Below, in pieces: positions 2,241 to 46,475 of a stretch of 64,000 nucleotides of DNA (positions within the stretch are counted from its first letter, which is position 1; each line of letters opens with the position of its first letter). Made by a program: the position numbers and the translations under genes. The notes under the pieces were generated by a model. It was not told the DNA's origin. It saw only the letters and a list, made by a program, of their open reading frames with translations, and searched no databases. Source of the stretch: Phycisphaerae bacterium (GTDB taxonomy: Bacteria > Planctomycetota > Phycisphaerae > UBA1845 > Fen-1342). The stretch lies in contig JANQNU010000060.1 in the NCBI GenBank assembly GCA_028279405.1, positions 1 through 64,000 of the forward strand. Reading direction: 5' to 3'.

Positions 2241-4649
2241 GTGAATCCATCTGAACGATACCAACTCGTGCTGACACTCTTCGATCAGGCATGTGACCTA
2301 CCCGCGAACGACCGCGCGCAGTTCCTGGCGGAGCACTGCACGGACCCGGAGGTGCGGAGCGAAGTCGACCAAATGCTGCGGCACAGCGAGGGTACGGACG
2401 CATTCGTGGATGCCTCCGATCCGGGTCGTGGTCTGAACCGGATGGCTGCCGACGTGCTGGGTGACGACGATGCCGATGCCCCGATGCCGGAACGGATCGG
2501 CCGCTACGTCGTGAAGGGCCTGATCGGTCGCGGGGGCATGGGGATCATTTACGAGGCGGAGCAGGAGTCGCCGAAACGGCGCGTCGCGATCAAAGTGCTG
2601 CAGCCGTCAGCGGTGAGCCGGATTCTGCTGCTGCGGTTCCAGCACGAGGCGCACATTCTCGGCCAGTTGCAGCACCCGGGAATCGCACAGATCCACGAAG
2701 CAGGTTGGGCGGAAATGCCGCACGGCCGCCAGCCGTACTTTGCGATGGAGTTCATCGACGGGGCGCCGATCGACGAGTTCGTGCAATCCAGCGGGCTACG
2801 CGTTCAGGAGATCCTGGAGCTGGTGGCGCGTGTCTGCGATGCCGTTCAGCACGCCCATCAAAAGGGCGTCATCCACCGCGATCTCAAGCCAAGCAACATC
2901 CTGGTCGTTCGACGGGAAGACGGTCAGGGTACGCGCGGCGCAGGTACGCGGACGGATTCGTCGGGCACGAGCAGCTACGCCAACGACAGCATCGGGCAGC
3001 CGAAGGTGCTGGACTTCGGGATTGCGCGCATCACGGACGCCGACCTGAAAGCAGTAACGGTTCAGACCGAGGTCGGGCAGTTGATCGGCACGCTGGCCTA
3101 CATGAGTCCCGAACAGGTGAGCGGCCGTTCGAACGACCTCGATACGCGCTGCGATGTCTACGCGCTGGGTGTGGTGCTCTACGAGTTGTTGACTGGCAAG
3201 CGACCGCACGATCTGACCGGGCTGGCGATGGCCGAAGCGGCGCGCGTCGTGTGCGAGCAGGAGCCGCCGGGGTTAGCGCAGATCGATCGTCGATTGCGCG
3301 GCGACATTGCGACGATCGTCGCGAAGGCGATGGACAAGGATCGCGATCGGCGCTATGACACCGCGGCCGAGTTGGCGGCGGACATTCGGCGTCACCTTGC
3401 GCATCAACCCATCCAGGCGCGCGCGGCTGGTACTTTCTATCAGTTGAGCAAGTTTTCCCGGCGCAACAAGGGGCTGGTCGCTGGAATGGCGATGGCATTC
3501 GTCGCGCTGGCGCTCGGATTGGTGGGCACGACCGTAAGCGCCATCCGGGCCAACGAAGAGAGTGCCCGCGCCAAGCGGGCTGTGGAAGATGTAGAGCTTG
3601 TTTCCACATTTCAGCAGGGCATCGTTCGCAACATTCGCCTGCCCGATATGGGACGTTTGATCCTGGATGAGGTCGCGAAGCAGCATTCGGATCGCGGCGG
3701 CTCAGCCGAACTGGCGGCGGCGCTGGAGATGCTGAATGCCACGAGCATTTCGCGCGCGGTCATCGATGGGAGCATCTTGACCCGGGCTTCCGCAGCGGCT
3801 GACAAGGAGTTTGCCGGGAGTCCGGTGCTATGCGCCGACATCCACGAATCGATAGGCAGTACGTATCACGCACTGGCCATGTACGAGCCCTGCCTGCGCG
3901 AGATGCGGCGCGCGTACGAGATTCGGCGGGAGCATCTTGGGGATGACCATCCGAATACGGTATCAGTGCTAAGCAATATCGCGACTTCCTTGGTCATGCT
4001 TCGGCGATTCGCAGAGGCCAGCCCGGTTAGGGAAGAAGTGCTGCGCCGCCGGGCGGCGCTGGACGAGGACGATCCGCTGCTCTTGGAGGCACGCGTACAC
4101 CTTGCAGACATTCAGCGGTTGCTCGGCCGACTGGATGAGGCAGAGGCCGAGCTCGCATCTCTGGTCGAAGTATGCCGGCGGATCCTTCCGCCGGACAGTT
4201 ACCTGCGGCTCTACGCAATGGAGACGCTCGGGGCCATCTATGCCCAAACCAACCGGCCGGATGAATCGCTGGCCCTTCGGCAGCAGGTGCTGAAGGCCCG
4301 TCGGGAGTATTATCCCCACGACATCAAGACCTTGGGCGCATGGAGTCAGGTTGCACTAACGCTTTTCCATTTGGGGCGCTACGACGAGGCGGAGGCTTCC
4401 AGTGCCGAGCTGCTCGAGTATGCCGAACATCGCTTGGGCGATCACGATCCACGAACGCACCTGATTTTGCATTGTCTTGCGCATTCCCGTGTTCGGCAGG
4501 GCAAGCTGGAAGCGGGTCGCGCCAATTTCGAGACGTTGCTTCAACGCCAGCGAGAGGCGCTTCCGGCGGAGCATCCCATCGTGCGGAAGACTACGCAAGA
4601 ACTCGCCGACGTCGTTCGTCGGATCGAGACGGAATCCGAAACCGAATAG
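2241..4649 (+). CDS. Membrane Ser/Thr protein kinase with TPR sensor region (copy A)
   Basis: An 803-residue eukaryotic-type Ser/Thr kinase. GTG at 2241 is preferred to the upstream open-frame start because GAGGATC lies just before it and copy B begins at the same codon. Residues 1-85 are a helical N-terminal segment seen in planctomycete kinases. The kinase domain (about 89-385) has glycine loop IGRGGMG 95-101, lysine 118, HRD 212-214, DFG 258-260 and SPE 289-291, so it should be active. A Ser/Thr/Gly-rich insert of about 30 residues separates the catalytic loop from DFG. One membrane helix (about 411-432) is followed by a C-terminal TPR region of about 360 residues that should lie outside the cytoplasm. 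No sigma gene adjoins it. It is a paralogue of 53499-55910 (kinase part nearly identical) and of 12523-15666. Confidence 0.93.
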   Translation: MNPSERYQLVLTLFDQACDLPANDRAQFLAEHCTDPEVRSEVDQMLRHSEGTDAFVDASDPGRGLNRMAADVLGDDDADAPMPERIGRYVVKGLIGRGGMGIIYEAEQESPKRRVAIKVLQPSAVSRILLLRFQHEAHILGQLQHPGIAQIHEAGWAEMPHGRQPYFAMEFIDGAPIDEFVQSSGLRVQEILELVARVCDAVQHAHQKGVIHRDLKPSNILVVRREDGQGTRGAGTRTDSSGTSSYANDSIGQPKVLDFGIARITDADLKAVTVQTEVGQLIGTLAYMSPEQVSGRSNDLDTRCDVYALGVVLYELLTGKRPHDLTGLAMAEAARVVCEQEPPGLAQIDRRLRGDIATIVAKAMDKDRDRRYDTAAELAADIRRHLAHQPIQARAAGTFYQLSKFSRRNKGLVAGMAMAFVALALGLVGTTVSAIRANEESARAKRAVEDVELVSTFQQGIVRNIRLPDMGRLILDEVAKQHSDRGGSAELAAALEMLNATSISRAVIDGSILTRASAAADKEFAGSPVLCADIHESIGSTYHALAMYEPCLREMRRAYEIRREHLGDDHPNTVSVLSNIATSLVMLRRFAEASPVREEVLRRRAALDEDDPLLLEARVHLADIQRLLGRLDEAEAELASLVEVCRRILPPDSYLRLYAMETLGAIYAQTNRPDESLALRQQVLKARREYYPHDIKTLGAWSQVALTLFHLGRYDEAEASSAELLEYAEHRLGDHDPRTHLILHCLAHSRVRQGKLEAGRANFETLLQRQREALPAEHPIVRKTTQELADVVRRIETESETE

Positions 4650-12522: not shown

Positions 12523-15500
12523 TCAGGATCGCTCCTGCCAAGCTCTCAACTTCTTGTCGAATCCGGCGCTGGGATCTGACTTGTGCCATGATTCATAACA
12601 GCGAATGATCCGATCATTCATTGTCTGGAGCAATTGCGTTCCGCGTTCGCTCTCTGCGAATGGGTGATGCTGCAGATTCTCGATCGCCTTGACCATGAGT
12701 TCTTCCGCTTCGGCGTAGCGGCGCGAGTCGGCAGCAATCGCTTCGCCCAGTTCGCTCTGCGTTGCCAGGATTTGCCACGCGCCAGGCGTCAATGTCTCTC
12801 GAATTCTCAGGGACTCTCGTAGCAAAGGTTCGGCCTCTGCCCCGCGACCTTGCCGATTGAGGTTGATTCCAAGGTCATCCATCGCCCTGACGCTATTGAT
12901 GCCGTCTTTTTGTTTCAGTTGTCGCATGGCCTTGAGGACGGCGCGACGGAACGGCTCTGCTTCCTTCCTTTTTCCTTGCAGTTCGAGATTCTTGGCAAGC
13001 TCTCTCGTAGCAGTGATCGTTTTTGGGTGATGCTCCCCAAATATCTGTCGCGCTCCGGCGACAGCTTCTTTGTAGTACTTGATTGCCTCGTCACGTTCGC
13101 CGTAACTCGCGTGCAACTTTGCTACGTGGTAAATCGCCCTTAGCGTGTCGGAATCCAGGTCGCCACGACCGCGTCGACGAATCGACAAGGCCTCCAGATA
13201 GAGCGTCTTCGACTCCTCACCTCGGTTGGTTTTGCGTAGCAGTGCCCCGAGGTTCTCCAGATACGTGATTGTTTCGGCATGCTCAGCGCCGAATACCTCT
13301 TTTGTCAGCTCCAGCGAAGCCCGAAACAGCGGCTCGGCTTCGTCGAATCGCTCCATGCGATAGAGGACGCCGGCCAGGTTGTTCATGCAACTGATCGTCT
13401 TGGGGTGCTTTGAGCCGCGGAGCCGCCGTGCCGACTCCAGGGCCCGACGATACAACGACTCTGCTTCTTCCAGGTCACCTTCGGCCCGAAACATCGCCGC
13501 AACGTAGTCCATCGCGACCAGTGTGTTCGGATGGTCTTCGCCGAGCACACGCCGTCTAGCTTCGTAATTTTCGACCAGAATCGGCTTCGCCGCTTTGAGG
13601 TCGCCCTTTTGCAGTAGCGCGATACCGAGGTTGCCGATATTGGCAAGCAGATCTTCATCGTCCGAGTCTAATGTTCGTTTCTGAATCTCGAGTGTTTTTC
13701 GAAACAGCGAAATTGCTTCGTCGATTCGCCTTTCCTTGAATAGCAATGCGGCGAGACTGTTGCTCCAGGAGAGCACGCCCGGGTGCTCCGGCCCAAGTAC
13801 CCGTGTGGCTGTGTCGAGAACGTCTCGGAGCGTCGCCTCGGCTTCGTCGAGCTTGCCCATTGCGACAAACAAGCCGCCGAGCGCGGCTCCGGCCCTCAAC
13901 GTGTCGATATGTTCCTCGCCAAGTGTCGAACGACGAATCTCAAGCGATCTTCGAAAGGGCTCCTCGGCTCTTTCGAAGAGCCCGAACGTTTGCAGAGTAG
14001 TGGCGGCCGTCGCTAGCAGCCTCGTTTGCAGTTGCGGCTGATCCGAGAATTCCTCGTCAATTGCCTGAATCGATGGCTCCAAGATGTCTTTCTCGATAAC
14101 GCCGAGCGCGACATCCGTGAAGTTGATCTGCGATAGTCGTTCGGCGAGCTGCCGGCGTTTCTCTTGAGGCACCGCATCGAGGATCGCCGCCTTCAGGTTT
14201 GCGCCCATCCGGGGTACGTCAACGCCTTCCAATTGTGTGGCCTGAAATCGGGCGGCCTGATCCGCATCGTCGCGTGATTCGTCCGCTGCTGCCCGAGCGG
14301 CGTCCGCTGCTTTGCGGGCTGCGATCGCCGTATTTTTCTCTTTTTCGGCTTCGCCGCGTGCCCGATTGCTTTCAATCAGGCCATAGCTTGTTCCGATCAA
14401 CGCGATGATCAGCATGACAAATGCCGCCGCCAGACCGAAAACAAGCCCCTTGTTTCGCGCCGCGAACTTGTTGATCTGGTAAAAGGTGCTGGCAGGGCGG
14501 GCGTCGATGGGTTGATGATTCCGATAGCGGCGAATGTCCGCGGCGAATTCGGCCGCGGTGGCGTAGCGGCGCTCCCGGTCCTTGTCCATCGCCTTGGCGA
14601 CGATGGTGGCAATGTCCCCTCGGAGGTTGCGATCAACCTGTCCGAGCGGTGTCGGTTCGTCTTCGCCGATCACGCGTGCCGCTTCCGCCATGGCGAGACC
14701 TGTCAGGTCCAGCGGACGTTTGCCGGAAAGCAGCTCGTAGAGCATGACTCCCAGCGCGTAGACGTCGCAGCGCGTGTCCACCTCCGTGGGATTTCCGCGC
14801 GCCTGCTCCGGGCTCATGTACGCGAGCGTCCCCACGAGTTGGCCGACTTCGGTCTGGACCGTCACCGTTTGCAAATCCGCGTCGGTCACCCGCGCAATGC
14901 CGAAGTCGAGTACCTTGGGTTGGCCGATACCGTCGCTTCGCCCGCTACCCGTCGAATGTGTATCCGCCGCATTCGTGCGCGTACCATCGTCTGGAGTCTG
15001 CACGAGAACGTTGCTTGGTTTAATGTCGCGATGAATGACGCCTTTTTGATGAGCGTGTTGTACAGCGTCGCAAACCCGCGCGACGAGCTCCAGAGTCTCG
15101 TTCACGCCGAGAGCGTGACGGTCGACGAACTTGTCGATCGGTTCGCCATCGATGTACTCCATGGCGAAGAAGGGCTGGCGATCGTGTTGCAATTCCGCCC
15201 AGCCCGCTTCGTGGATTTGGGCGATTCCGGGATGCTGCAACTGTCCCAGCACATGGGCTTCATGTTGAAATCGACGAAGGAGTTCACGGCTGATCAGTCC
15301 GGGTCGTAACACTTTCAACGCGACACGTCGCTTCGGCGAATCCTGTACGGCTTCGAAAATAACGCCCATGCCACCGTGCCCGATCCGGCGCCGTATACGA
15401 TACGTTCCAATTATCTCTGGTACCGGCGCCTCCCCGTCGTCTGCACAGAGCGCTTCGGCGGCCATCATCTCGAGACCACGGCCCGGCTCTGAAACGTCGA

Positions 15501-15666
15501 TAAACGCGTCGCTGGATTCATCCTTCCGCAATAAGGCCTTCACTTCTTCGCGGATCTCGCGGTCAGGGCAATGCGCGGTTAGAAACGGTGCGCGCTCATT
15601 ATGGGGCAGGTCGCAGGCCCGATCGAAAAGTGTAAGCACGAGTCTGTGCCGTTCCGCAGGATTCAT
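12523..15666 (-). CDS. Membrane Ser/Thr protein kinase with long TPR array
   Basis: A 1047-residue protein and a paralogue of the 803-residue kinases at both ends of the window (shared NPxERHRLVLTLFD opening). Kinase domain: IGHGGMG 95-101, lysine 118, HRD 212-214 (followed by IKPSN), DFG 254-256, with the same Ser/Thr/Gly-rich insert before DFG. A membrane helix near 415-435 is followed by a basic/acidic coiled coil and then at least ten TPR units (ALGEEHIDT, VLGPEHPGV, VLGEDHPNT, RGSKHPKT, FGAEHAET and FGEHHPKT mark the repeat joints, as in kinesin-light-chain type TPRs). The ATG overlaps the stop of a truncated sigma fragment (ATGA) and lacks a good ribosome site, a sign that it was once translated by coupling. 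The frame after its stop still shows TPR sequence. Confidence 0.92.
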   Translation of the reverse strand: MNPAERHRLVLTLFDRACDLPHNERAPFLTAHCPDREIREEVKALLRKDESSDAFIDVSEPGRGLEMMAAEALCADDGEAPVPEIIGTYRIRRRIGHGGMGVIFEAVQDSPKRRVALKVLRPGLISRELLRRFQHEAHVLGQLQHPGIAQIHEAGWAELQHDRQPFFAMEYIDGEPIDKFVDRHALGVNETLELVARVCDAVQHAHQKGVIHRDIKPSNVLVQTPDDGTRTNAADTHSTGSGRSDGIGQPKVLDFGIARVTDADLQTVTVQTEVGQLVGTLAYMSPEQARGNPTEVDTRCDVYALGVMLYELLSGKRPLDLTGLAMAEAARVIGEDEPTPLGQVDRNLRGDIATIVAKAMDKDRERRYATAAEFAADIRRYRNHQPIDARPASTFYQINKFAARNKGLVFGLAAAFVMLIIALIGTSYGLIESNRARGEAEKEKNTAIAARKAADAARAAADESRDDADQAARFQATQLEGVDVPRMGANLKAAILDAVPQEKRRQLAERLSQINFTDVALGVIEKDILEPSIQAIDEEFSDQPQLQTRLLATAATTLQTFGLFERAEEPFRRSLEIRRSTLGEEHIDTLRAGAALGGLFVAMGKLDEAEATLRDVLDTATRVLGPEHPGVLSWSNSLAALLFKERRIDEAISLFRKTLEIQKRTLDSDDEDLLANIGNLGIALLQKGDLKAAKPILVENYEARRRVLGEDHPNTLVAMDYVAAMFRAEGDLEEAESLYRRALESARRLRGSKHPKTISCMNNLAGVLYRMERFDEAEPLFRASLELTKEVFGAEHAETITYLENLGALLRKTNRGEESKTLYLEALSIRRRGRGDLDSDTLRAIYHVAKLHASYGERDEAIKYYKEAVAGARQIFGEHHPKTITATRELAKNLELQGKRKEAEPFRRAVLKAMRQLKQKDGINSVRAMDDLGINLNRQGRGAEAEPLLRESLRIRETLTPGAWQILATQSELGEAIAADSRRYAEAEELMVKAIENLQHHPFAESERGTQLLQTMNDRIIRCYESWHKSDPSAGFDKKLRAWQERS

Positions 15667-15830
15667 CGCGGTTCACCATCGCGCAGCGCGCGGGGCAGCC
15701 ATGCCCGCACGCGGCGCCATTCCATTTCTATGGTTGACAGAGAGACTTTTAGCACTCCCACAATCTCCTTGAGCGCCCAAACCGTCGAGAATCGCAGCTT
15801 AATGATTCTAGCCCAACAAGCATCCAAGAT
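15663..15830 (-). pseudogene. Truncated ECF sigma factor, region 4 only
   Basis: Upstream of and overlapping the kinase start (ATGA), the minus strand reads about 53 codons matching the C-terminus of this sigma family: IIKLRFSTVWALKEIVGVLK, then SLSTIEMEWRRVRAWLPRAL. This corresponds to the region 4 helix-turn-helix (compare IVELRFFGGMTVAEAANVLE in the intact gene at 8329-8898). No region 2 sequence is found further upstream and the frame has no plausible start. It occupies the place that an intact sigma gene takes in the other pairs. Confidence 0.7.
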
Positions 15831-15954
15831 AGCCAAGCACGTCGGCGTTTTGTCGACGCAAGAGACTCGATCCCTATTCGATGGACAGCGGTATCACGGC
15901 GGTAGTCTGGGCTCGTTCATCCAGGGCCGTACGGGCACTCGCACGGCGCTTGGC

Positions 15955-16000
15955 GTGATTGATCGCCCCTCGCGCACCTGTGCAAGGGGCGATCAATCAC
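15955..16000. repeat. Perfect 16-bp inverted repeat
   Basis: GTGATTGATCGCCCCT (15955-15970) and its exact reverse complement (15985-16000) flank a 14-base spacer. It lies 85 bases beyond the stop of the giant minus-strand gene and upstream of the sigma fossil. No T-run follows on either strand. It may end the ten-gene operon transcript or be a protein binding site. Confidence 0.6.
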
Positions 16001-16084
16001 CTTTGACGACCAAGCCGCTGACGTGCGCGTCAAGCCGTAGCGTTTCCGGACCGTTTCACAGTGCCGTCGCTTCGGCGCGAATCC

Positions 16085-19000
16085 TTATTGAGGTTTCGCG
16101 TGACAGGTCTGGGCAGCGCCGGCGCCCGCCCATCGTTTGACAACCGAGTTGAGTTCTTCCTGATCGGTATCGGATCCGGGCCCGAAGTACGCGTACTCCA
16201 ACGCGTGAATGTCTGCTTCCAAGGCATCGAGTTCACGCGCGGTCAGTTGCCCGTCGAGCTGCTCGTACCAGCGCCGAAGGGCGGTCACCACGCTGAGCGG
16301 CGTAAGGCGCGCCGGTGGCGTGAGGGGAGAGGCGAGGTTCGTGATAGGGCGCTTGCGCCGTCGAGCCCAAATCAACAGGAAAAGAACAAACGTGGCTACG
16401 ATCGCGCTGCCGGCAGCGACGTACGGCAACCGGCGGTGGCGTTGAAATCCCAAGTCGATCCATTCTCCGCTGATCGGAGCGATGTCCAAGGTGGCGTAGT
16501 GCTTCGATACCAACGTCGCTGGAGTTTCCGCGCCGAGACGTGGAAGTCGGAACCGGCCGGAACTGGCACTGCCGTCGGGTTGGTACGTAACGGTCCAGGA
16601 TCGCTCCACCACCGGGCGGACAATCCCATTGGCGTCGGGTTCCGGGTAACCCGACGAATCCGCCATGTCGCTCGACCGAGAGGGGGCCACGTCGAAGCCG
16701 TTCAGGATCAAGGTCGGCGCCGGCTCGATCCCATTCGGGCCCGCCGAGTAGCCCGGCAATGCACCTTCTATGCCGTCGAGCAAGTGGGCGAGCCCGGGAA
16801 CGCTGCCGCGCCCGCGCGCGGTGACCTCGAGGCGCACGGACCGATCGGTCGTCTGGGCCAGCGCATCACGTCCATCCACAACTTGCGTGATCAACAGCTC
16901 GTCGCACGGTCGCTCGGCAGGACCTTCACCCACCGCGATTTGCGGCGTATTCGACGACGTCACGACGTTCACATATCCGCGCCCTTCGTAAAACTGCATC
17001 TCCATCGTGATTTGCGGCAACCGATCCACGCTTGCGTCCTTCGGCGTTACGATCACATAGGCCAACGGCTTTTCGAGCCATTCGTCCTGCCCATCTTCGA
17101 GTACTCCCCACGGAGGGAACTCCGGATGATAAAAACCGATAACACAATGATCGAAACTCTTGCTGAACGCGGTTTCGATCGTACGCTCGAGCAGGTCGCG
17201 ATAGTTGATCTCACGTCCCGGAGCGATGGCGACATTGTTCCGCAGGTACTTCGAAAATCCCTCAGTCTCGCGGTCCACGGCGCTGGTGAACCGGACGGAC
17301 ACCGCCACGCCGAAGGGCACGCCAGCCCGGATCTCGGAGGGTCCGTCGATTGTCAGGCGGAGCTTGACCTCATCGTTCATCAGTTCGCGATAGAGCTGGT
17401 GACGTGCGCGAATCGGCGCGCCCGCCGGATGGTCGCCAACAATGCGTATGGCGGCATTTACGAAGCGTGGCTTGCCTTCCGGGGGAACGTTAGTGATGGC
17501 TTCATTGACCGCTTCCGCGAATTCCGCAATGTGGCGGTAGGACGCGTCGGGCGGCAGGCGGTGTAACGCCGCCGCGATGTGGTCGAACTGATTGTCTTGC
17601 AGCGTACCGGCGAGTGGCAGGACGTCCGCGGTCAGCCGCGATACGTCAGCCGCACCCATCGCCGTCTTGAACCATGCAACGAACAGGTCGGACGTCTCCT
17701 GTTGGGAGCCGCTCGCCAGCGCCTTGGCGTAGCTTGCAGCCGCGCGTTCAAAGACCGCGTATGCATCCCGGAGTTGCGCCAGCCGCTCGGCCTCGTCCAC
17801 GACGTCGGTCTTCGTGCGAAATGACAGCCAGCGAAGAGCGAGAGTGGCCTTGAGCTGATCGGTTTCCCAGTCGTCCGGGGCAGCGCGCTGCGCGCGGTCC
17901 GCGAGCTGGTTTGCCGTTTCCATTCCACGGTCGACGACGCGCACGATGACCGCATTCGGGCGCTGCGGCGGGGCTGGTTGGCCGGGCGTGTTCGTGCTCG
18001 ACGCCTGGCTTCGGCCGCGCCAATATCCGTCCACGGCGGCGCTCACGGCTTCGGCAAGATGACGCGCGGTGTCCGCGGGAAGCTGATCGATCGGACCGAA
18101 GACGCGTTCGATGTCGGCGAGTTGAAACGCTTCGGAAGGATTATGGCAGACCGTGAAAACGTCGCCGATACTGGGGAGATGCCGGGAATCGACACCGAGC
18201 GGTTCGAGGATTTCGAGCACTTCGCGGAGCTCGTCGAGGTTGCGCCGTTGCAAGCCGCGCGTGACCGGAGGCAGCATGGAGCGCTGGTACGCCATGTTAC
18301 TTCCAGGGGATTGGGTCCAGATCTTCGGTTCGCCGACGCGCCCGAGCCATGCCGCCCAGCGCTTGAGGAACCGCTCGGCAAGCACTTGGGCCTGTGCCGG
18401 ATCCGGAGTTCGATCAACAGCGTCCTCGAGCAGCACAACGGCGCGGCTGATGTCGCCGACGCCGGCAGCCAGCTCGATGCTCGCGCCGCTGATGCGCACG
18501 GCCAAGCTCGGATTGAGCGCATCGAGCCAGGCGGGGCTGGGGACGGCGCGCAGCAGCAGGGCCCGATCCACGCGGGACACACGCTTATTGGAGGCGTTCT
18601 CCAGCTCCTGCGCAATAGCCGTTGTGAGCATCCGTAGCGGAATGCGCAGTGACTCGCGCTCGGCAGGATCGCTCCCGAGCAGGATGTCGACGGCTTCTTT
18701 CAGCGTTACGAGTCGGCGGATGCGTTCCGCACGCTGGATGTTCGCGTTGCCGAGCGCAACCGCGTTGAGCGTAATCTTCTCAATCACCAACGGGCCCAGC
18801 GTCTCACTTGCGAACACTTCTCGTAGCCAGGGCTCGATCATGGGCCGTGGCAGTTGCTCCATGAGCCGAATCGCGCGCTCCATCGCATCCGTGCGGTCGT
18901 CCGGCGAGACCTTTGGGTGCACGGCTGCCTCGCACAAGAGCGCCCACGCCCGAGCCCGGTGTTGGTTGGTCTCGTCCCCTTGACGCAGGTGATTCGCAAG

Positions 19001-19918
19001 GTACTGCAGGTAGCGGCCATGTTCGAGGATCACGCGTGCATCACCGGCGGTGCGCGCCTCCTGCAGGGGTGGCAGGAACTCGTAGGCTTCGCGGTCGAGC
19101 CCGGCGTCCTTCAGCAGATCGAGCGTGCGGCTCCGCCGCGCATCGTCGGTGCCGAATGCCTTCGTTCCCGCGTGGATCGCGCGCATCAGCTCGCTCGTGC
19201 CGTGCTTGGAGGCGGCGTTTCGCAGGATCATGGCGAGCAGGTGAACCTGCTGCTCAGTCAGCTCGGCCGGGGCGGCGTCTGCGACTTTGAGGACCTCTTC
19301 CGGCAGCAGGCCGGACTCGCCGGCCCGCAGCGCGTTGAGCACGCATCCATACATGGCTTGCGACTGCACGCGCGGGAGCGGCGCAAGGAAATCTCCGATC
19401 GCCTCCCAGTTACCCGCGAGGACATGGTCGCGTACCCACACGACGACAAGCTGTACGTTTGCGTTGGCGGCATCCGGATAGGCCTGTGAACGGCTGAGCT
19501 TGGTACGAGCCGCCAGAACGGCAGCTGGTGAACGGGCCATACCCGCCTGCACTTGCGCGAGCGCGGCCCGGAGCCGCTGCGCCCGCTGCATGTCCCGCTT
19601 TTCCTGATTGCCCAAGTCCAGAAGCGTACCGATATCGACGCCGAGGTCGGCATAGTACGCCTTCAGGCTAGAGCGCTCCTCGGCCGAGGATGCCTCATAG
19701 GTCGCCTTGAGGCGGGCGATTCCCTCGGCGGACATTGTCGGCGCGTCGGGAGCAGTGGTCGATGGCAGGCCCGTGTCGGGCAGGCCGGGAATCAGAGGCC
19801 GGACCGGATTGCCGGTTGCTAGAGCGGGCAGCATCAGTGCGACGGCGAGCGCAATTGCCCTCCTGGGAGTAAGACTCCGCGACCCGATCGGTATGTTTTG
19901 TTGACTTCGCATGCTCAT
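16085..19918 (-). CDS. Giant BatD-like membrane protein, last gene of the MoxR/VWA operon
   Basis: A 1277-residue protein. An N-terminal signal segment (ALAVALMLPALATG) is followed by some 750 residues of mainly helical sequence with no recognised domain. A beta-rich region (about 830-1150) starts at VKLRLTIDGPSEIRAGVPF, and the stretch before the membrane helix (SWTVTYQPDG, GRFRLPRLG) resembles the BatD family. One membrane helix lies at about 1165-1185 (AGSAIVATFVLFLLIW), then a basic tail of about 90 residues. BatD proteins are exported, anchored by a C-terminal helix and encoded last or late in MoxR/Bat operons, which fits. The length is about twice the usual. GGGGAG lies only 3 bases before this ATG, so ATG 19912 is an alternative start. 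It is 59 bases after the TPR gene. Function is inferred from context. Confidence 0.75.
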   Translation of the reverse strand: MSMRSQQNIPIGSRSLTPRRAIALAVALMLPALATGNPVRPLIPGLPDTGLPSTTAPDAPTMSAEGIARLKATYEASSAEERSSLKAYYADLGVDIGTLLDLGNQEKRDMQRAQRLRAALAQVQAGMARSPAAVLAARTKLSRSQAYPDAANANVQLVVVWVRDHVLAGNWEAIGDFLAPLPRVQSQAMYGCVLNALRAGESGLLPEEVLKVADAAPAELTEQQVHLLAMILRNAASKHGTSELMRAIHAGTKAFGTDDARRSRTLDLLKDAGLDREAYEFLPPLQEARTAGDARVILEHGRYLQYLANHLRQGDETNQHRARAWALLCEAAVHPKVSPDDRTDAMERAIRLMEQLPRPMIEPWLREVFASETLGPLVIEKITLNAVALGNANIQRAERIRRLVTLKEAVDILLGSDPAERESLRIPLRMLTTAIAQELENASNKRVSRVDRALLLRAVPSPAWLDALNPSLAVRISGASIELAAGVGDISRAVVLLEDAVDRTPDPAQAQVLAERFLKRWAAWLGRVGEPKIWTQSPGSNMAYQRSMLPPVTRGLQRRNLDELREVLEILEPLGVDSRHLPSIGDVFTVCHNPSEAFQLADIERVFGPIDQLPADTARHLAEAVSAAVDGYWRGRSQASSTNTPGQPAPPQRPNAVIVRVVDRGMETANQLADRAQRAAPDDWETDQLKATLALRWLSFRTKTDVVDEAERLAQLRDAYAVFERAAASYAKALASGSQQETSDLFVAWFKTAMGAADVSRLTADVLPLAGTLQDNQFDHIAAALHRLPPDASYRHIAEFAEAVNEAITNVPPEGKPRFVNAAIRIVGDHPAGAPIRARHQLYRELMNDEVKLRLTIDGPSEIRAGVPFGVAVSVRFTSAVDRETEGFSKYLRNNVAIAPGREINYRDLLERTIETAFSKSFDHCVIGFYHPEFPPWGVLEDGQDEWLEKPLAYVIVTPKDASVDRLPQITMEMQFYEGRGYVNVVTSSNTPQIAVGEGPAERPCDELLITQVVDGRDALAQTTDRSVRLEVTARGRGSVPGLAHLLDGIEGALPGYSAGPNGIEPAPTLILNGFDVAPSRSSDMADSSGYPEPDANGIVRPVVERSWTVTYQPDGSASSGRFRLPRLGAETPATLVSKHYATLDIAPISGEWIDLGFQRHRRLPYVAAGSAIVATFVLFLLIWARRRKRPITNLASPLTPPARLTPLSVVTALRRWYEQLDGQLTARELDALEADIHALEYAYFGPGSDTDQEELNSVVKRWAGAGAAQTCHAKPQ

Positions 19919-19977: not shown

Positions 19978-20841
19978 TTACCAGCCGCCATTGAGGTTCG
20001 GATCCGCGATTCTGCCGTTGTCACTGCGTTTGCGTTTCTGGTTCTCCCTTTGGCCGGCGGGGCGCCGACTGAGCCCAAAATCGCAATCGCAGCCGGCGGG
20101 TGGATACGGCGTCGGGGTTGCCTCGATTTCGTCCAGGGAGTGCTGCTCCAGGTTGAGGACGACCTCGAGATTCTGCTGGTACGTCGCGCGGGCCGCGGCT
20201 TGGGCCGGCGTGGTGGCTGCTTGTTCGGAAAGGTGGCGGAAGTGCTGTCGCGACAACGCGGAGACCTGCCGCCATTGATCATCCGGTTGCCCCTGCATGC
20301 GCATCTCCCGTGCGCCCATGTAGTATGCCGAGGCGAGCTCCGCGCGAATCTGGCGCGCAATGGACACCGAATCACCGCCGGTCGAGCCTACGTTGTTCAG
20401 TAGCTTCTCCAGATTGTCCGCCGCTGCGAACACGTGGCCTGATCCAAGCAGGGCGCGCGCGTGCCGCAGGCGGACGCTGCGGGCGCGATCACTCGCTTGA
20501 GGCAGCTCGGCCTGTACGTCGTCCAGAGCCTCGGCAACGATCTTCCAAGCATCGCGCGCATCCTGCCAAGCGATTTGCTCCTCGGCGAATGCGCGTTCCG
20601 CCCGCTCGATATCTTCCGGCGTGCCGCTTGCGTCTGCCCGACGCTTGGCCACGACCCTGATTTCGTGCCGCGCCGTCGCACGCTCGTGCAACTGTTCCGC
20701 GGCTTGTCGCGCGGTCTCGGCTTGTGCGAACAGTGTTGCAGCACGTTGCTCGTGCAGCAATGCTCTACCCGGACCATAGTGGAAGCTCACGCCGGCGAGC
20801 AGTCCGAGCACCCAGCTAGTCCACAATAAGCTCCTCACCAT
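19978..20841 (-). CDS. TPR-like periplasmic protein (BatC position)
   Basis: A 287-residue protein with an N-terminal signal anchor (SLLWTSWVLGLLAGVSF) and long helices rich in Ala, Arg and Glu (residues 30-215) including RLRHARALLGSGHVFAAADN, which looks like degenerate TPR or coiled coil. The C-terminus is a basic, Pro/Asn-rich tail. The ATG overlaps the stop of the VWA gene by 7 bases, with GGAG 7 bases before it. In MoxR/Bat operons a TPR protein (BatC) sits between the VWA proteins and BatD, so this is the likely equivalent. Sequence alone would not identify it. Confidence 0.7.
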   Translation of the reverse strand: MVRSLLWTSWVLGLLAGVSFHYGPGRALLHEQRAATLFAQAETARQAAEQLHERATARHEIRVVAKRRADASGTPEDIERAERAFAEEQIAWQDARDAWKIVAEALDDVQAELPQASDRARSVRLRHARALLGSGHVFAAADNLEKLLNNVGSTGGDSVSIARQIRAELASAYYMGAREMRMQGQPDDQWRQVSALSRQHFRHLSEQAATTPAQAAARATYQQNLEVVLNLEQHSLDEIEATPTPYPPAGCDCDFGLSRRPAGQRENQKRKRSDNGRIADPNLNGGW

Positions 20842-21872
20842 GATGATGCTCCTACTCTGGTTGCCGGTGCGCTCGCCGAGACAGTGCGGGTGACGCGCGT
20901 CGCATCACGCTTCAAGCTGCGCTCTTCGCGGCGCGATAATCGCGAAATGCCAAAGAGCGCCAGGGCGGGGCCGATCGCCGCGAACAGCAATGCACCGCCG
21001 GCGAGGGCGGCAAGTCCTCGTTCGCGATCGTCCCAAGGCGTCCGCGGCTGCGGCGCAGTCATGGCCAACGAGTGAATCACACGTGTCGGCAAGAAGCCGC
21101 GGTTGCCATCGAAGTACTGTCCGCCAAGCCGCGCCGCGAGCAGTTTGAGCGATGTTGCGTCCTGCCGCGAAGCCCGTGACCCTAATAGCGACGTTCCGCG
21201 TGTGTCGCCTACGCCGACAACCAGCACATCAGCGATCGACGCGGGCAGTGGCCCGACGGTCATTGAACTCTCGGCGTCACCGTCACTGATGACCACGAGC
21301 GTCGCAGAGCGTCGACCCCATGGGCGGGCATGTTTCAGCGCCGCGTTGATGCCGCTGGCGATGTCCGTTTCGCCGGGTTCGAACCCCCTGTAGTACGGCA
21401 TGCCGCTGAGTACACGGAGCACGAGGTTCATGTCGTTGGTGTCGGTCAGGACGGGGATTGCCTTGGTGTAAAAGGCGACTAGCGTAATCCGCGAGTCGCT
21501 TGCGCCGACGCGGTCGAGCAACTCCTGCATAATCTGGCCCGCCCAGCGCGCGCGAGTCGTCTTCTGGCCCTGTGGGCCGGCGTCCTCCACGTACATGCTG
21601 GGGGAGACATCTAGGCAGATCAGCACCCGTTTCGACGCACGGGGCGAGCGAGTACGGTCCGCTGCCGTCGGGTCAAAGCGCAATAACGTCATTGCGCCGA
21701 ACGCGATGGCGCCCAGTGACACCGCCCGTAGCAGCGGTACGGCTCGCACCCAGGCCGCGGGTCGTCCGGCACCCCCGAACGCCAGATGAGCGACACGCCG
21801 AATGCGGCGCGCATGCAGCCACTCGGCCCCCAGTACTACCAGCACGACGGCGATCGTGGCTCCCGTTACCAT
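20835..21872 (-). CDS. VWA-domain membrane protein, second of a pair (BatB-like)
   Basis: A 345-residue protein. ATG 21872 is chosen over a longer open frame because GAGG lies 8 bases before it and it overlaps the previous stop (ATGGTAA). Two membrane helices lie at about 3-19 and 44-64; the VWA domain starts near 82 with MIDAS motif DVSPS (88-92), a GETD segment and VISDGDAE. A C-terminal helix (about residues 290-315) precedes a basic tail. This is the BatA/BatB layout: a VWA domain held at the membrane by flanking helices. VWA proteins of this type work with MoxR ATPases in maturation or stress tolerance of envelope complexes. It is translationally coupled to genes on both sides. Confidence 0.88.
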   Translation of the reverse strand: MVTGATIAVVLVVLGAEWLHARRIRRVAHLAFGGAGRPAAWVRAVPLLRAVSLGAIAFGAMTLLRFDPTAADRTRSPRASKRVLICLDVSPSMYVEDAGPQGQKTTRARWAGQIMQELLDRVGASDSRITLVAFYTKAIPVLTDTNDMNLVLRVLSGMPYYRGFEPGETDIASGINAALKHARPWGRRSATLVVISDGDAESSMTVGPLPASIADVLVVGVGDTRGTSLLGSRASRQDATSLKLLAARLGGQYFDGNRGFLPTRVIHSLAMTAPQPRTPWDDRERGLAALAGGALLFAAIGPALALFGISRLSRREERSLKRDATRVTRTVSASAPATRVGASSW

Positions 21873-22786
21873 GGCGTATACCTCAGTCCGAGCAACGCAA
21901 TGGTCTGCAGCAGCAGCGCAACAACTCCTGTCGCCGCACACAACCGCACGTCATCCATTTCGACTTTACCCTGCGGAACGATCCGGGCCGGCTGCATGCG
22001 ATTGATGTGATTGAACACGTCCGCGAGAGCGCCCTTATCCGTCGCCGTCAGTCCCTCGCCTCCGGTTTCGCGCGCCAGTTCAGCGACTTCCGGGATCATG
22101 GCGATGTCGTCGGCCACGTGGACGTAATACAGAACGCAGCGCGCATCGTTCAACTCGCGCGCTAACTCGTACTGACGGCCACCTTGCATATCGGGGCTTT
22201 CGCCGTCGGAGACCAGGATGATCAGACGATCACCCTCGAGCGCCTCCGCTTCGATGTTCCTGCAAACAAACCGCAGGCATGCGGCAATCGCCGTGCTCTG
22301 CATGTGCTCCGGCTGCTGATCCGGATTGGCGAAGGGCAGCGCGTTGCGGATCGCCTGCAGGTCCTTGGTCAGCGGAATCCAGCGCACTTGTTCGCCTCCG
22401 AACAATGTCAAGCCCATCGCATCGCCTTCGCGAGCGCGCGTGAAGTTCTCGATCGCCCGGGCGGCGAGTTGGTAGCGGCGGCCGCTGAAGAACCCCATGC
22501 TGCCCGAGACATCGAGGCAGATCTGGATATTCGTCACCGAACGGAGCGCGCGCGGTTGCTGCAATCGCTGTGGACGGGCGAGCAGGATGATCGCGAGGGC
22601 CAGCAGGATCGCCGGAAGCGTCGACGTTGCCGCCAGGCCCCAGCGCAGCCAGCGACGTCTCCGGTGCGGGCGATGATCGAACGGCAGCGTCAAGGGCCGG
22701 CCCGTCCGCCCGAAGAGCACGAGCGCCACCGGAACCACCAGCAGCATGAGAACCCAGGGATGTACGAAACTGTCCGGTAGCATCAT
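21866..22786 (-). CDS. VWA-domain membrane protein, first of a pair (BatA-like)
   Basis: A 306-residue protein with helices at about 10-26 and 53-71, then a VWA domain with the classical MIDAS motif DVSGS (92-96), a threonine-containing loop and VSDGES, and a final helix (residues about 285-303). It matches the BatA family in size and layout. It starts 5 bases after the previous gene and its stop overlaps the next start by 7 bases. The intact MIDAS motif implies metal-dependent ligand binding, probably to the MoxR ATPase or its client. Confidence 0.9.
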   Translation of the reverse strand: MMLPDSFVHPWVLMLLVVPVALVLFGRTGRPLTLPFDHRPHRRRRWLRWGLAATSTLPAILLALAIILLARPQRLQQPRALRSVTNIQICLDVSGSMGFFSGRRYQLAARAIENFTRAREGDAMGLTLFGGEQVRWIPLTKDLQAIRNALPFANPDQQPEHMQSTAIAACLRFVCRNIEAEALEGDRLIILVSDGESPDMQGGRQYELARELNDARCVLYYVHVADDIAMIPEVAELARETGGEGLTATDKGALADVFNHINRMQPARIVPQGKVEMDDVRLCAATGVVALLLQTIALLGLRYTPW

Positions 22787-22791
22787 GGCAA

Positions 22792-23649
22792 TTACCCTTG
22801 GGCGGTGGGTGACGGCGTTTCATTCACCGATGTCGTGTCGGTCGTCGCGAGGTCGTCGAGCCAGCGAAACAACGCGTCGGTCGGCGCGACGGCCACATCC
22901 TGCTGCGAACCGGCGTGCAGCCACGATTCCAGTGCCAACAGTACGTCCCGCGTGCGTGGATGCACGCGCAGCGCGCGAATCTGGCCGGCACGGTCCTCCG
23001 GCGGCAGCGCCTGCCGCACGTCCGGATGTTGGGCCAGCACGCGAAGGAACTGGAGTTCCAATCGAGCAAGTTCGTCGGTATCCAACGCAGCGTGGCATCC
23101 CTTCTTCAGAAGCAACCGCGCCTCGTCGAGCGGTCGGCACGGCCTCTCTTCGGGCGGCTGTACCGCATCATTCAAGCGGCGCGGCCAATACCGGCGGGCC
23201 GCGACGATCAATGGGACGGCGAGCCAAGCGACTCCAAGAAACGTCATCGCAAGGGCGTAGCCGGTGCGGAGATGTGGATCGGGCAGCTTCGTTGATTGCA
23301 ACGCTCCGGCATTTCCTGGATCAAGCAACGACACGACCCGGACCGGCATCGACGGGAGATGCTCGGCCGGTCGTCCGTCAGCGCGTTCAACGTAATCCCG
23401 TAGGTCGTAACGTCCCGGGACAAGTCCAATGAACAGGATCCGTTGCGGGCTACCGTTGGGGTCGTGCGACACGCGAACGAGCAGTGCCGAGGAGGGGGCT
23501 TGTACCGGCCGGGCGCGCAGCGTCCCCATGTTCGCGGGCACCGTGATGCTCGATTCTAGGCCGCGCGCGGCGGTGATGTCCTGGTCGGCGCGGGCGGCGA
23601 CCCATGTTGCAAGTAAAAGGACCGCGAGAGCGCCATAGTGGATCATCAT
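22792..23649 (-). CDS. Single-span membrane protein of the MoxR operon (DUF4381-like position)
   Basis: A 285-residue protein. ATG 23649 is chosen because GAGGAGG lies 5 bases upstream; it overlaps the DUF58 stop (ATGA). A signal peptide (about 1-20, ending ARA) is followed by an exported beta-rich part of about 100 residues, one membrane helix (YALAMTFLGVAWLAVPLIVA, about 130-150) and a cytoplasmic helical part of about 120 residues (LARLELQFLRVLAQHPDV). I see no named domain. In MoxR operons a small protein of this topology (DUF4381) lies between DUF58 and the VWA genes. Assignment rests on place and topology. Confidence 0.7.
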   Translation of the reverse strand: MMIHYGALAVLLLATWVAARADQDITAARGLESSITVPANMGTLRARPVQAPSSALLVRVSHDPNGSPQRILFIGLVPGRYDLRDYVERADGRPAEHLPSMPVRVVSLLDPGNAGALQSTKLPDPHLRTGYALAMTFLGVAWLAVPLIVAARRYWPRRLNDAVQPPEERPCRPLDEARLLLKKGCHAALDTDELARLELQFLRVLAQHPDVRQALPPEDRAGQIRALRVHPRTRDVLLALESWLHAGSQQDVAVAPTDALFRWLDDLATTDTTSVNETPSPTAQG

Positions 23650-24509
23650 CGGCACCTCCTCGTGAACCCGCCGCGCGACTTGAGGAAACGGCGAATGGGG
23701 GCGAGGGGGCGCTCGTCGGTGCGCACCGTCAGCACATCAATCCCGGCTGCCAGCAGCTCATCGTGCGCGGCGGTATGTGCGGGCCAGTTCGTCCGGCCAT
23801 ACCCGATGAACGCAGCGCCGCTTTCTGATTCGCGGCCGCGAAAGAAGCCGGCGCGCAGTCGACCCTGTTCGGCCGGATCGAACAGTCGAATCGCAACGCA
23901 GTCATGCCGCAGCGCGCAACGCACAAGACTCCGTGCCGCATCCGGATCGTGGAAGTCGCTCAGCACGACCACGAGGCTTGTGGAGAAGGCCGATGCTTCA
24001 ATTCGATTGACGGCGACGTGCAGGCCAGAGCTCGCCGACGGGCGCCGTCGAAGTGCATCGAGCGCAAGCCATAAATCGGGACGGCGCAAGCCGGGCTGCG
24101 GCGGATGATCGCTATGACCAAGCAGCGACACCGGGTTCATGTGGCGCAGACAAATCAGTCCGGTGGCTGCCGCAATCCAGACGGCCAGGTCGAACTTGCG
24201 CGTCGGCATGGATGTCACCATCATCGAAGCCGACGTGTCGACAACGATGTACGTAGGGAGCCGGCGCAGCACCTCGTATTGCTTGACGAACGGTTTTCCG
24301 CTTCGCCCCGTCAGGCGCCAGTCAAGCGCGCGTCGCGGGTCGCCGGGCTGGTAGGGGCGCGATGAAGCGTACTCCAATCCCTGCCCGACAAACAGCGAAA
24401 CGTGACTTCCGAAACCGACGTCGGCGGCGATTCGGCGGACGATCAGCTCGAAGTCCTCGTCGGCCAGTTCGCGCGGCGAACCGAGGGGGGTATGCGTCCA
24501 CGTGCTCAT
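23646..24509 (-). CDS. DUF58 protein of the MoxR operon
   Basis: A 287-residue protein. ATG 24509 has GGAGG 8 bases upstream; an earlier in-frame ATG (24548) overlaps the MoxR stop but lacks a ribosome site. The DUF58 signature YQPGDPRRALDW (53-64) is followed by GKPFVKQYE, then a VWA-like fold with DTSAS, and a later VLSDFHD segment. DUF58 proteins are encoded with MoxR ATPases in many bacteria and are thought to link the ATPase to the VWA proteins. Its length is typical. No membrane helix is seen. Confidence 0.9.
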   Translation of the reverse strand: MSTWTHTPLGSPRELADEDFELIVRRIAADVGFGSHVSLFVGQGLEYASSRPYQPGDPRRALDWRLTGRSGKPFVKQYEVLRRLPTYIVVDTSASMMVTSMPTRKFDLAVWIAAATGLICLRHMNPVSLLGHSDHPPQPGLRRPDLWLALDALRRRPSASSGLHVAVNRIEASAFSTSLVVVLSDFHDPDAARSLVRCALRHDCVAIRLFDPAEQGRLRAGFFRGRESESGAAFIGYGRTNWPAHTAAHDELLAAGIDVLTVRTDERPLAPIRRFLKSRGGFTRRCR

Positions 24510-24544
24510 CGTGCGCCTCCGCGTTCGGGTCCCTTCACTTGCGC

Positions 24545-25570
24545 TCATGTCAAACGGTCGAGAATGTCCCGCAACACGCTTTCCGGGCGCAGCCCCTGCG
24601 CCAGCGCCTCGTACCGCAGTCGCATACGGTGCAGCAGCGCATCTTCGGCGAGGGCGAAGATATCTTCCGGGATTACGTACTTCCGCCCGTGGAGCATCGC
24701 GCGGGCCCGCGCTGCGGTCACCAGTGCGATCGCCGCGCGCGGACTGCACCCCAGCTCGATGCGCTCATCATTTCGCGTCAGGTTGACCAACTCGACACAG
24801 TCACGGACGAAGACGTCGCTGACGTGGATCTGCTGGACGTCCTGCATCGCGCGGGTCAGATCCGCTAGCTGCAGTTGCCCTTCGTTCTCGATCATATCAA
24901 AGGCCGACATCGGCACTGCGCCTTCTCCGCGATGCCTAAGCTTCAGTGCAGCGCTGCGCCGCACGATTTCGGCCTCGTCCTCAGGCGATGGATATGTCAG
25001 TCGATGCCGCAGCAGAAAGCGGTCGAGCTGGGCTTCAGGTAATTCGAATGTACCCGCTTGTTCCACAGGATTCTGCGTGGCGATCACGACGAACGGCGTC
25101 GGCAGGTCGTACGTAACATCACCGATCGATACGCGGCGCTCCTGCATTGCTTCCAGCAGCGCCGACTGCACTTTTGGCGAGGCACGGTTGATCTCGTCAG
25201 CCAACAGCAGATTGGTGAAGACGGGGCCCTCGTGTATGCGGAACGCGCCGGTGCCCTGGTCGAGGACTTCGCCGCCGACGATGTCCGACGGTAACAGGTC
25301 GATTGTGAATTGAACGCGCTTGAACTGCAGCGAGATTGCATGTGCGACGCTGTGAACCAGCAGGGTCTTGGCAATCCCGGGGACACCTTCCAGCAACAGG
25401 TGTCCCCCTGTCAGCAATGCGATCAGCACACGCTCGACAACCTCCTGCTGGCCGACGACGGTGCGCGCGACGTGGCGACTCACCGCTTTGCCGAAGCGCT
25501 CCATGGTGTCGTTCTCGTCCGGTGCGACGGTAACACTCTCCGGCTCGTGCACGTTCGCGTTTCTGTCCAT
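24545..25570 (-). CDS. moxR: MoxR-family AAA+ ATPase
   Basis: A 341-residue ATPase. GAGG lies 7 bases before the ATG. Walker A GVPGIAKT (62-69), Walker B LLLADE (121-126), sensor-1 VIATQNPVEQ and the region with LPEAQLDRF and RHRLTYPSPEDE are all characteristic of the MoxR group. It is a hexameric chaperone-like ATPase working with VWA proteins to mature or remodel envelope or metal-containing complexes. It sits 36 bases after the thioredoxin gene and 35 before DUF58. Full length with all motifs, so probably active. Confidence 0.95.
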   Translation of the reverse strand: MDRNANVHEPESVTVAPDENDTMERFGKAVSRHVARTVVGQQEVVERVLIALLTGGHLLLEGVPGIAKTLLVHSVAHAISLQFKRVQFTIDLLPSDIVGGEVLDQGTGAFRIHEGPVFTNLLLADEINRASPKVQSALLEAMQERRVSIGDVTYDLPTPFVVIATQNPVEQAGTFELPEAQLDRFLLRHRLTYPSPEDEAEIVRRSAALKLRHRGEGAVPMSAFDMIENEGQLQLADLTRAMQDVQQIHVSDVFVRDCVELVNLTRNDERIELGCSPRAAIALVTAARARAMLHGRKYVIPEDIFALAEDALLHRMRLRYEALAQGLRPESVLRDILDRLT

Positions 25571-25606
25571 GCGTCGACCTCGAAAAAAGGGACGGATATT
25601 CGCTGT

Positions 25607-26749
25607 CTACTTACTTCCATTACGAGGAGCTCGCTCATCGTTTTCCACGGGCGGGTTGACGATCCGGTCGACGACATCCACAACCCGTGTCGCTCGCACA
25701 CCGGCTGCACGAACGACTCCATGTGCATCGACGATCACGGTGATGGGGACGAATCGAATGTTGAACGCCGCCATCGTCAGTCCGCCAGGGGTGCGCCGGT
25801 CGCCGGGTGGATCGGCGTCGCGCACGATCGTGCTACTCCAGTTTCCTTCGGCGGCGAGCGTCCGTACCTCGGCCCAATCGTCGCGATTGTCGCAGACGGC
25901 GATCAGACGTGCGCCGCGCTGAATCAGTTCTGGTTCGAGCGCGCGCAATTCGTCCAGCGCGCGAATTGAGTAGACGTTGCTCGTCGACCAGAAATGCAAC
26001 ACGGTGACGCTGCCGGATGACAATGACGGGTCTGGCCGTGGCCCGAGGCACTCGTCGGTCGTCATCACGGAAACAGCGCTCCCCTCCGTTGCGCGCAGGC
26101 CCGGGTCGCGTGTTACTCCGCCGAGAAAGAACTCAGGCGGAAACGAGGCCGTTTCCTCGATGGGGTCCTTCAGGATTCGCTCAATCACGTCCGCGACTTT
26201 CTCCGGACGTAGCCCTGCCGCCCGGACAATTCCCCGACGATCGATCACGACATAGGTCGGCCACGCCTCCAGTTTGTAGCGTCGAGCCGTGTTGTCCTGC
26301 TCGTCCGACGAGTCGAGGGCGATCGAGTAGCGGATCTGCCGTCTTTCGGCTTCGCGCTGCGCCTTGTCCCACGCTCGGTTCGAGTCATGCACGCCGATGA
26401 GCGTCACGCCGCGATCGGCGTATTGACGCACGAGGCTCGCATCCACGTTGAGCGCGGCGATGCAAGGCGCGCACCACGCCGCCCAGAAATCGAGCACGAC
26501 AATGCGGCCGCGCAGCTTCTCCAGTTCCTGTGGCGCTCCGATCCACGCCTGGGTGTTTAGCTCAGGTGCTGGCTGCCCTTGAAGTCGCCGCACGAGGAAC
26601 TGGTCCGAGAAGTACCAGTCCAATGGGAATTCATTGCGCGGTTCGCCGGCGCGGGTGCCGTGGTCGCTCCCACCGAGGATAAGCCCTAGGCCTAGTGCCG
26701 CGCAACGCAGCCGAGCGATTGTGATATTCATGCTCCGTCCGAATCGCAT
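25607..26749 (-). CDS. Exported tandem thioredoxin (TlpA-like), second domain lacking CxxC
   Basis: A 380-residue protein. ATG 26749 has GGAG 7 bases upstream; the longer open frame would run into the kinase gene. A signal segment (ARLRCAALGLGLILGG) ends near residue 35. The first TlpA/AhpC-type domain (about 55-195) has DFWAAWCAPC with active cysteines 93 and 96 and the WPTYVVIDRRG segment with cis-proline 164. The second (about 225-370) keeps the fold (VTVLHFWSTSNVYSIRALDE and VPITVIVDAHG) but has S-T-S-N where the cysteines should be, so it cannot do disulfide chemistry. A catalytic domain fused to a binding-only copy is plausible. It sits between the kinase and MoxR, tying the operon to redox control outside the cytoplasm. 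Confidence 0.87.
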   Translation of the reverse strand: MRFGRSMNITIARLRCAALGLGLILGGSDHGTRAGEPRNEFPLDWYFSDQFLVRRLQGQPAPELNTQAWIGAPQELEKLRGRIVVLDFWAAWCAPCIAALNVDASLVRQYADRGVTLIGVHDSNRAWDKAQREAERRQIRYSIALDSSDEQDNTARRYKLEAWPTYVVIDRRGIVRAAGLRPEKVADVIERILKDPIEETASFPPEFFLGGVTRDPGLRATEGSAVSVMTTDECLGPRPDPSLSSGSVTVLHFWSTSNVYSIRALDELRALEPELIQRGARLIAVCDNRDDWAEVRTLAAEGNWSSTIVRDADPPGDRRTPGGLTMAAFNIRFVPITVIVDAHGVVRAAGVRATRVVDVVDRIVNPPVENDERAPRNGSK

Positions 26750-26784
26750 CAACGGTCTCCAGAACGATAGAAGGTTCGTGCGAT

Positions 26785-45687: not shown

Positions 45688-46475
45688 AATCGCTCTCCTG
45701 TGGAACGGCGATGTGTGTTTTGGAAAATGGAGCGAGATCGATGATCGCGGCTCCACACGCACATCACTTGCTAAACCATAGGCCAATCACAACTACATTT
45801 TTTGTAGACACGTGGCGGTGATCAACCATCTCCGATAATGCAGCCGAAAAGAGGCGGCGTGATTGCGCAAAAAAAAGACCTTGGATCAAGGGCCGCGCGA
45901 GTCGACGACGTACATCGACAAGATGGCATTCATCTGGAGCGGTCAAAAAAAGTAATATGACGACGTGAATTCGCCGGACGTGACGGGGACCGTGACCGTG
46001 TTATTACAAAAAGCGCGGCACGGTGATGCTCAGGTGATGAATCAGCTATTCAACTACGTATACGACGATTTGCGCTGCATGGCCGTGGGCGAAGAGCGGT
46101 GCGCAGCAGGTGATCGACGGGATAGCCCTGGTTCACGCCGCCTGTGCCCGCTTGCTTATGCACGATTCGCTTGATGCGGATAGCGGATCGTCCTGGCCTG
46201 TCTGGTCGTCTTGGCGTTGATTCTGGTTCAGCTGCCGGCCGTTTGCGGCGACAACACGCTCGCCGGATCGGCCATGAGCCGGATGTGGACGATCGCACGA
46301 TCTCAGCGACCTCGAAATCCGGCTTGGCCGGTCGGGGCGGATGACCCTGATTCTCTACTCTATTTTTACGGGTTGGTGCCTTCTCGGTTGTTTACGGGGT
46401 GAAGGCCCTGCGGTTCGCAGTCGGCTGGACGACCCGAATACACCCGACAAACCTGACTATCAAAAGGACACCGAC
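45688..46475. other. Intergenic region holding a broken sigma gene
   Basis: Outside the sigma remnant (45965-46180) there is an AT-rich stretch near 45770-45960 (with a CTACA/TGTAG hairpin around T6 near 45795) that could hold promoters for both neighbours. Near 46190-46260 the plus strand reads a hydrophobic stretch (VLACLVVLALILVQLPAV) without a start codon. No intact gene is seen. Confidence 0.5.
45965..46180 (+). pseudogene. ECF sigma factor N-terminal fragment, frameshifted
   Basis: The first frame (GTG at 45965) reads VTVLLQKARHGDAQVMNQLF followed by NYVYDDLRCMA, the region before sigma region 2. Similarity then moves to another frame: QQVIDGIALVHAACARLL, matching the family hallmark ALVHEAYLRL. 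A frameshift between about 46090 and 46110 breaks the gene, and region 4 is absent downstream. Confidence 0.65.

Follow-up and report, generated by a model that had tools for sequence, protein, structure and literature searches.

RESULTS AND DISCUSSION

A sigma factor remnant overlaps the start of an intact kinase gene

The window, the whole 64,000-nucleotide stretch of Phycisphaerae DNA analyzed here, carries a gene for a membrane Ser/Thr kinase that now has no adjacent sigma factor gene (Table 1). Its frame is unbroken over 1,047 codons and encodes a complete Pkinase domain with its catalytic motifs and TPRs, with a TM segment assigned by eye. Directly upstream lies a 57-aa open frame (15663-15836, reverse strand) matching positions 138 to 185 of the PF07638 profile with 26.7 bits (E 6e-6; cut-off, 21.1 bits); in a whole-genome PF07638 search the match widened to profile positions 122 to 185 at 15678-15869. 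The stop of this frame and the kinase start share bases, TGA (15665-15663) and ATG (15666-15664) together forming ATGA. The 68-aa fragment is closest to the sigma factor paired with a kinase on another contig, C90 (C90:11517-12356; 57% over 67 aa, 70 bits), the next best of the 43 sigma factors of the genome scoring 48.5 bits. Beyond chance, the fragment represents region 4, the C-terminal end of an ECF sigma factor of the planctomycete type.

Table 1 Features of the sigma factor remnant and its kinase, in positions of the window
Feature	Position	Strand	Basis or remark
Sigma fossil, region-4 part, open frame	15663..15869	-	PF07638 match; stop overlaps kinase start
Sigma fossil, linker and region 2.4, out of frame	15870..15963	-	DNA alignment to C90 sister sigma
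ATGA shared by sigma stop and kinase start	15663..15666	-	Usual geometry of intact pairs
Palindrome, two 22-nt arms; sigma homology breaks off inside	15955..16000		Kinase-side arm with sigma-derived bases
Intact membrane Ser/Thr kinase, 1,047 aa	12523..15666	-	N-terminal module, Pkinase domain, TM segment, TPRs

The preliminary description held that only region 4 remains; region 4 is indeed present, but it is not all that is left, as DNA homology continues through the linker into region 2.4. This remnant spans 298 nt between the kinase start and position 15963, a net 5 nt less than in the C90 sister, and several indels are scattered over the alignment. The region-2.4 stretch INHAKRRA can be read at 15939-15963, in a different frame from region 4, and the upstream part aligned on its own scores 39, compared to 33 for the best of 500 shuffles. 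The best alignment of region 4 places a paired -1/+1 frameshift over the conserved FFGG turn. The N-terminal ~95 codons are missing, and region 2 is not in frame with region 4. DNA and protein searches of the window with the C90 sigma factor did not find the missing 5' part elsewhere, returning otherwise two intact sigma factors.

The sigma homology stops abruptly at 15963, inside a palindrome whose RNA fold has a predicted energy of -49 kcal/mol. The outer arm resembles an inverted copy of sigma-derived bases, and a fold-back event at the break would fit such an arm. The palindrome does not recur as an element in the genome: outside its two arms, the 13-nt core has a single exact copy, on C38. 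A search of Rfam matched nothing at 15600-16200.

The window also contains a second, separate sigma fossil (45965-46200, forward strand), an ECF N-terminal part matching PF07638 positions 3 to 35, with no adjoining kinase; its frame breaks and is followed by an ALVHAACARLL remnant in another frame. An inversion between 15.9 and 46.2 kb that split one sigma gene was considered and rejected: by protein comparison the second remnant is nearest to the C46 sigma factor, not to that of C90, and at the DNA level it scores 24.5 against the C90 sigma gene, below the shuffle mean of 28.3.

Sigma-kinase pairs are common in this genome and its relatives

This genome (G000), 5.63 Mb long and split into 92 contigs, has 72 PF07638 matches and 84 kinases with a Pkinase match above the cut-off, two split genes being merged and one below-cut-off match excluded. 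With a sigma HMM built from first-pass hits, a complete sigma factor gene was found upstream, within 2.2 kb and on the same strand, for 42 of the 84 kinases (39 of them strong, E below 1e-30); 4 kinases have a partial match and 38 have none. HMM coverage is likewise partial for the other three kinases of the partial class (L097, L107, and L108). Sigma stop and kinase start share a four-base overlap in 28 of the 42 pairs, and the layout of the fossil locus is thus the one that intact pairs normally show. The profile match, the ATGA, and its frequency among intact pairs bear out the earlier view of a fossil sigma gene whose stop overlaps the kinase start as in an intact operon.

Among 29 kinases of relatives, a complete sigma factor gene lies upstream of 20, none upstream of 9, and a fragment upstream of none. 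Of the 19 whose match takes in the N-terminal module (a start no later than residue 13), 18 have a complete upstream sigma gene; these relatives and the C90 sister locus thus carry an intact sigma factor at the equivalent place. One relative's kinase, L044, carries the module with no upstream sigma gene found and is a possible case of a kinase left without its partner elsewhere. No orthologue of the exact fossil locus and no close kinase orthologue were found in other species, and the neighboring protein at 16088-19918 has one partial match among 60 other genomes; the argument for loss in place rests therefore on paralogues.

The fragment has decayed like neutral DNA

Compared to the C90 sigma factor, the fossil is less similar to all 38 of 38 other sigma factors, with a mean identity difference of -0.18, whereas the matching comparison of the two kinases gives -0.005. 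It has lost 7 of 16 strongly conserved columns; 39 intact sigma factors have lost a median of 2 and a maximum of 5. The extra divergence at the three codon positions (0.097, 0.124, and 0.050, against 34 comparable sigma factors) follows the pattern of a neutral simulation in which the C90 sequence was mutated, at ~0.25 substitutions per site. The fragment is a true pseudogene, with both frame-breaking changes and relaxed constraint.

The fragment could instead be a working small region-4 protein or a leader peptide, for example one coupling translation to the kinase. Its frame does stay open for 57 to 76 codons into the kinase overlap, and 9 of the 16 conserved columns are kept. However, the listed ORF begins at a TTG (15836), with no ATG upstream of the helix-turn-helix and no Shine-Dalgarno motif apparent by eye, the conserved turn is destroyed, and the extra divergence is that expected of neutral DNA; we regard a functional product as very unlikely. 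Still less credible is an assembly or binning error. The genome is split over 92 contigs, but one wrong join would not resemble scattered indels and raised substitution spread over 298 nt together with neutral-like drift.

Several related kinases have no adjacent sigma factor

An HMM of the N-terminal module, built from 25 sigma-overlapped kinases with that of C90 (L139) left out, picks up 39 of the 42 kinases linked to a sigma gene versus 10 of the 42 others, and the module thus marks sigma pairing. The kinase at 12523-15666 is among these ten. Two of them, L100 and L138, have a sigma gene nearby in a different orientation and are possible rearranged pairs; eight "widowed" kinases remain. Five widowed kinases and the C90 kinase form a clade of six (support, 95/95; our 17-kinase tree is the careful version and the 84-kinase tree the quick one), in which the sole intact sigma gene is that at C90. 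Within the clade the kinase halves are similar and the sensor halves mostly dissimilar: the first 385 residues are 64 to 94% identical, the remainder 24 to 29%, except for C90 and C11 (57.5%) and the pair W2241 and W53499 (65%). The kinase at 12523-15666 may itself be a mosaic, as its C-terminal half is nearest to C55 (39%) and its kinase half to C90 among the seven compared.

W2241 (kinase 2241-4646) and W53499 (kinase 53499-55907), both on the forward strand and sigma-less, lie 51 kb apart in the window. Their kinase halves are 94% identical and their upstream DNA 82% over 496 nt. The dN/dS of the kinase halves is 0.08, indicating that selection continued in both without an adjacent sigma factor. 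Short sigma-like tails precede W53499 and C11 (each 18 of 30 nt identical to C90) and W2241 (16 of 30 nt); null pairs average 9.7, with 18 or more in 1.1% and 16 or more in 4% of 351 pairs, so that these tails are suggestive rather than conclusive. No such tail was found upstream of the C1 kinase.

The sigma-less sisters are dispersed and are preceded by no more than a short sigma-like tail, which raises the question of whether a complete sigma gene was ever present upstream of the kinase at 12523-15666. The kinase might have been copied here with only the 3' part of its sigma gene, and the abrupt end of homology would suit such a truncated duplication. The ages of the two events argue otherwise. 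Over the kinase half, dS between our kinase and that of C11 is 1.5, and that with C90 is not computable, being near synonymous saturation; the fossil's ~0.25 substitutions per site is well below the branch since the sister split, so that loss of the sigma gene probably came long after the paralogues had separated. Moreover, fossil and C90 sigma factor agree at 43, 49, and 29 of 66 first, second, and third codon positions, which shows that selection acted for long once the lineages had split. Copying at a later date from a parent since lost would still fit, and on balance we consider truncated duplication unlikely.

The kinase has been retained

That the kinase outlived its sigma factor, as previously described, is supported by the comparison with C90: the fossil diverged further than its sister, and the intact 1,047-aa kinase, with its complete Pkinase domain and TPRs, did not. 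The two kinases are 73% identical over the kinase half. Equal kinase divergence and the intact frame suggest that the kinase has been under purifying selection since the sigma loss, as neutral drift over the same time should have introduced many stops and frameshifts, and none is present.

The preliminary description also raised the possibility that the kinase is losing function too. It has lost its partner and sits behind a strong hairpin, and a simple scan found no promoter-like site for it. This idea does not hold up well, because the kinases lack the divergence gap seen between fossil and C90 sigma factor: our kinase, its frame and catalytic motifs intact, is no more diverged than its C90 sister, which still has its sigma factor, and the sigma-less sisters are under selection. 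A dying kinase is thus quite improbable.

A probable history of sigma loss and possible new partners

We favor, at roughly four in five, partial loss of the sigma gene in place, followed by neutral decay and retention of the kinase, most likely with a target elsewhere. The locus would derive from a translationally coupled pair of an ECF sigma factor and a membrane Ser/Thr kinase, like that of C90 at about 9.6 to 13.2 kb. At the break now marked by the palindrome, the locus would have lost the 5' half of its sigma gene (regions 2.1 to 2.3, including the Thr target), and what was left of the gene went on to decay neutrally, accumulating frameshifts. The kinase would have been maintained by purifying selection, as measured in two sigma-less sisters and as seems probable for 12523-15666 itself. 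Less certainly, the C-terminal TPR part most likely remains the kinase's sensor, and the substrate would be either a sigma factor encoded elsewhere, that of C90 being the closest candidate, or another protein.

The same arrangement of a sigma factor and an adjoining Hanks-type kinase is known from the ECF43 pairs EcfP-PknT of Vibrio parahaemolyticus and EcfK-PknS of Xanthomonas citri. In these pairs, the target of the kinase is a Thr within motif 2.2 of the sigma factor (PMC8999054, PMC13147305), with further phosphorylation sites in the linker of the sigma factor (PMC13147305). The motif around this Thr is QTTA or STTA in ECF43 and QPTA in the intact paralogues here. The groups ECF59, ECF61, ECF62, and ECF217, typified in planctomycetes, are likewise sigma/Ser-Thr kinase pairs, and our paralogues are compared with them by arrangement. 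Unlike all these pairs, the sigma factor here is a broken remnant without region 2.2, and the pair cannot work as such.

Having lost the entire phospho-acceptor region, the fossil cannot be a substrate of its own kinase. Substitute targets do exist in the genome, since the position phosphorylated in ECF43 is a Thr in 42 of 43 sigma factors and a Ser in one. Judged from sequence, another sigma factor would be the most economical use for the retained kinase, and that of C90, whose own kinase closely resembles ours over the kinase half, would be the first candidate. It is also possible, if rather speculative, that repeated sigma erasures replaced a one-to-one pairing by a many-to-one circuit in which all five widowed kinases of the clade, alike in their sigma-facing kinase halves but mostly not in their sensor halves, report to the surviving C90 sigma factor.

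An event of this type is of an ordinary, known kind; what is unusual is that it is caught half erased and that one genome holds eight widowed kinases. Orphan sensor kinases, retained under selection after their adjacent regulator was lost or separated, are familiar from two-component systems. The present case differs from these in that a Hanks-type kinase and an ECF sigma factor are involved and the remains of the partner are still in place. TPR-bearing Ser/Thr kinases form a lineage-specific expansion in Planctomycetota, with many paralogues and evidence of duplication, in passages of PMC11032199 that do not cover sigma neighbors or sigma loss. In our literature search, sigma fossils beside kinases were not the subject of any title or abstract opening found. 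Sigma-kinase pairs of this type have been inferred mainly from gene neighborhood, and the combination seen here, an intact kinase next to a fossil whose age can be roughly estimated, suggests that a kinase can survive the breaking of its pair. The C90 sigma factor offers a testable substitute partner, and the eight widowed kinases are replicates within a single genome.

Upstream of the locus, 19978-26857 on the reverse strand encodes, all on one strand, a MoxR ATPase, a DUF58 protein, two VWA proteins, and an AhpC/TSA-like protein, a set resembling a Bat-type operon. Transcription of the kinase may now come from this set of genes.
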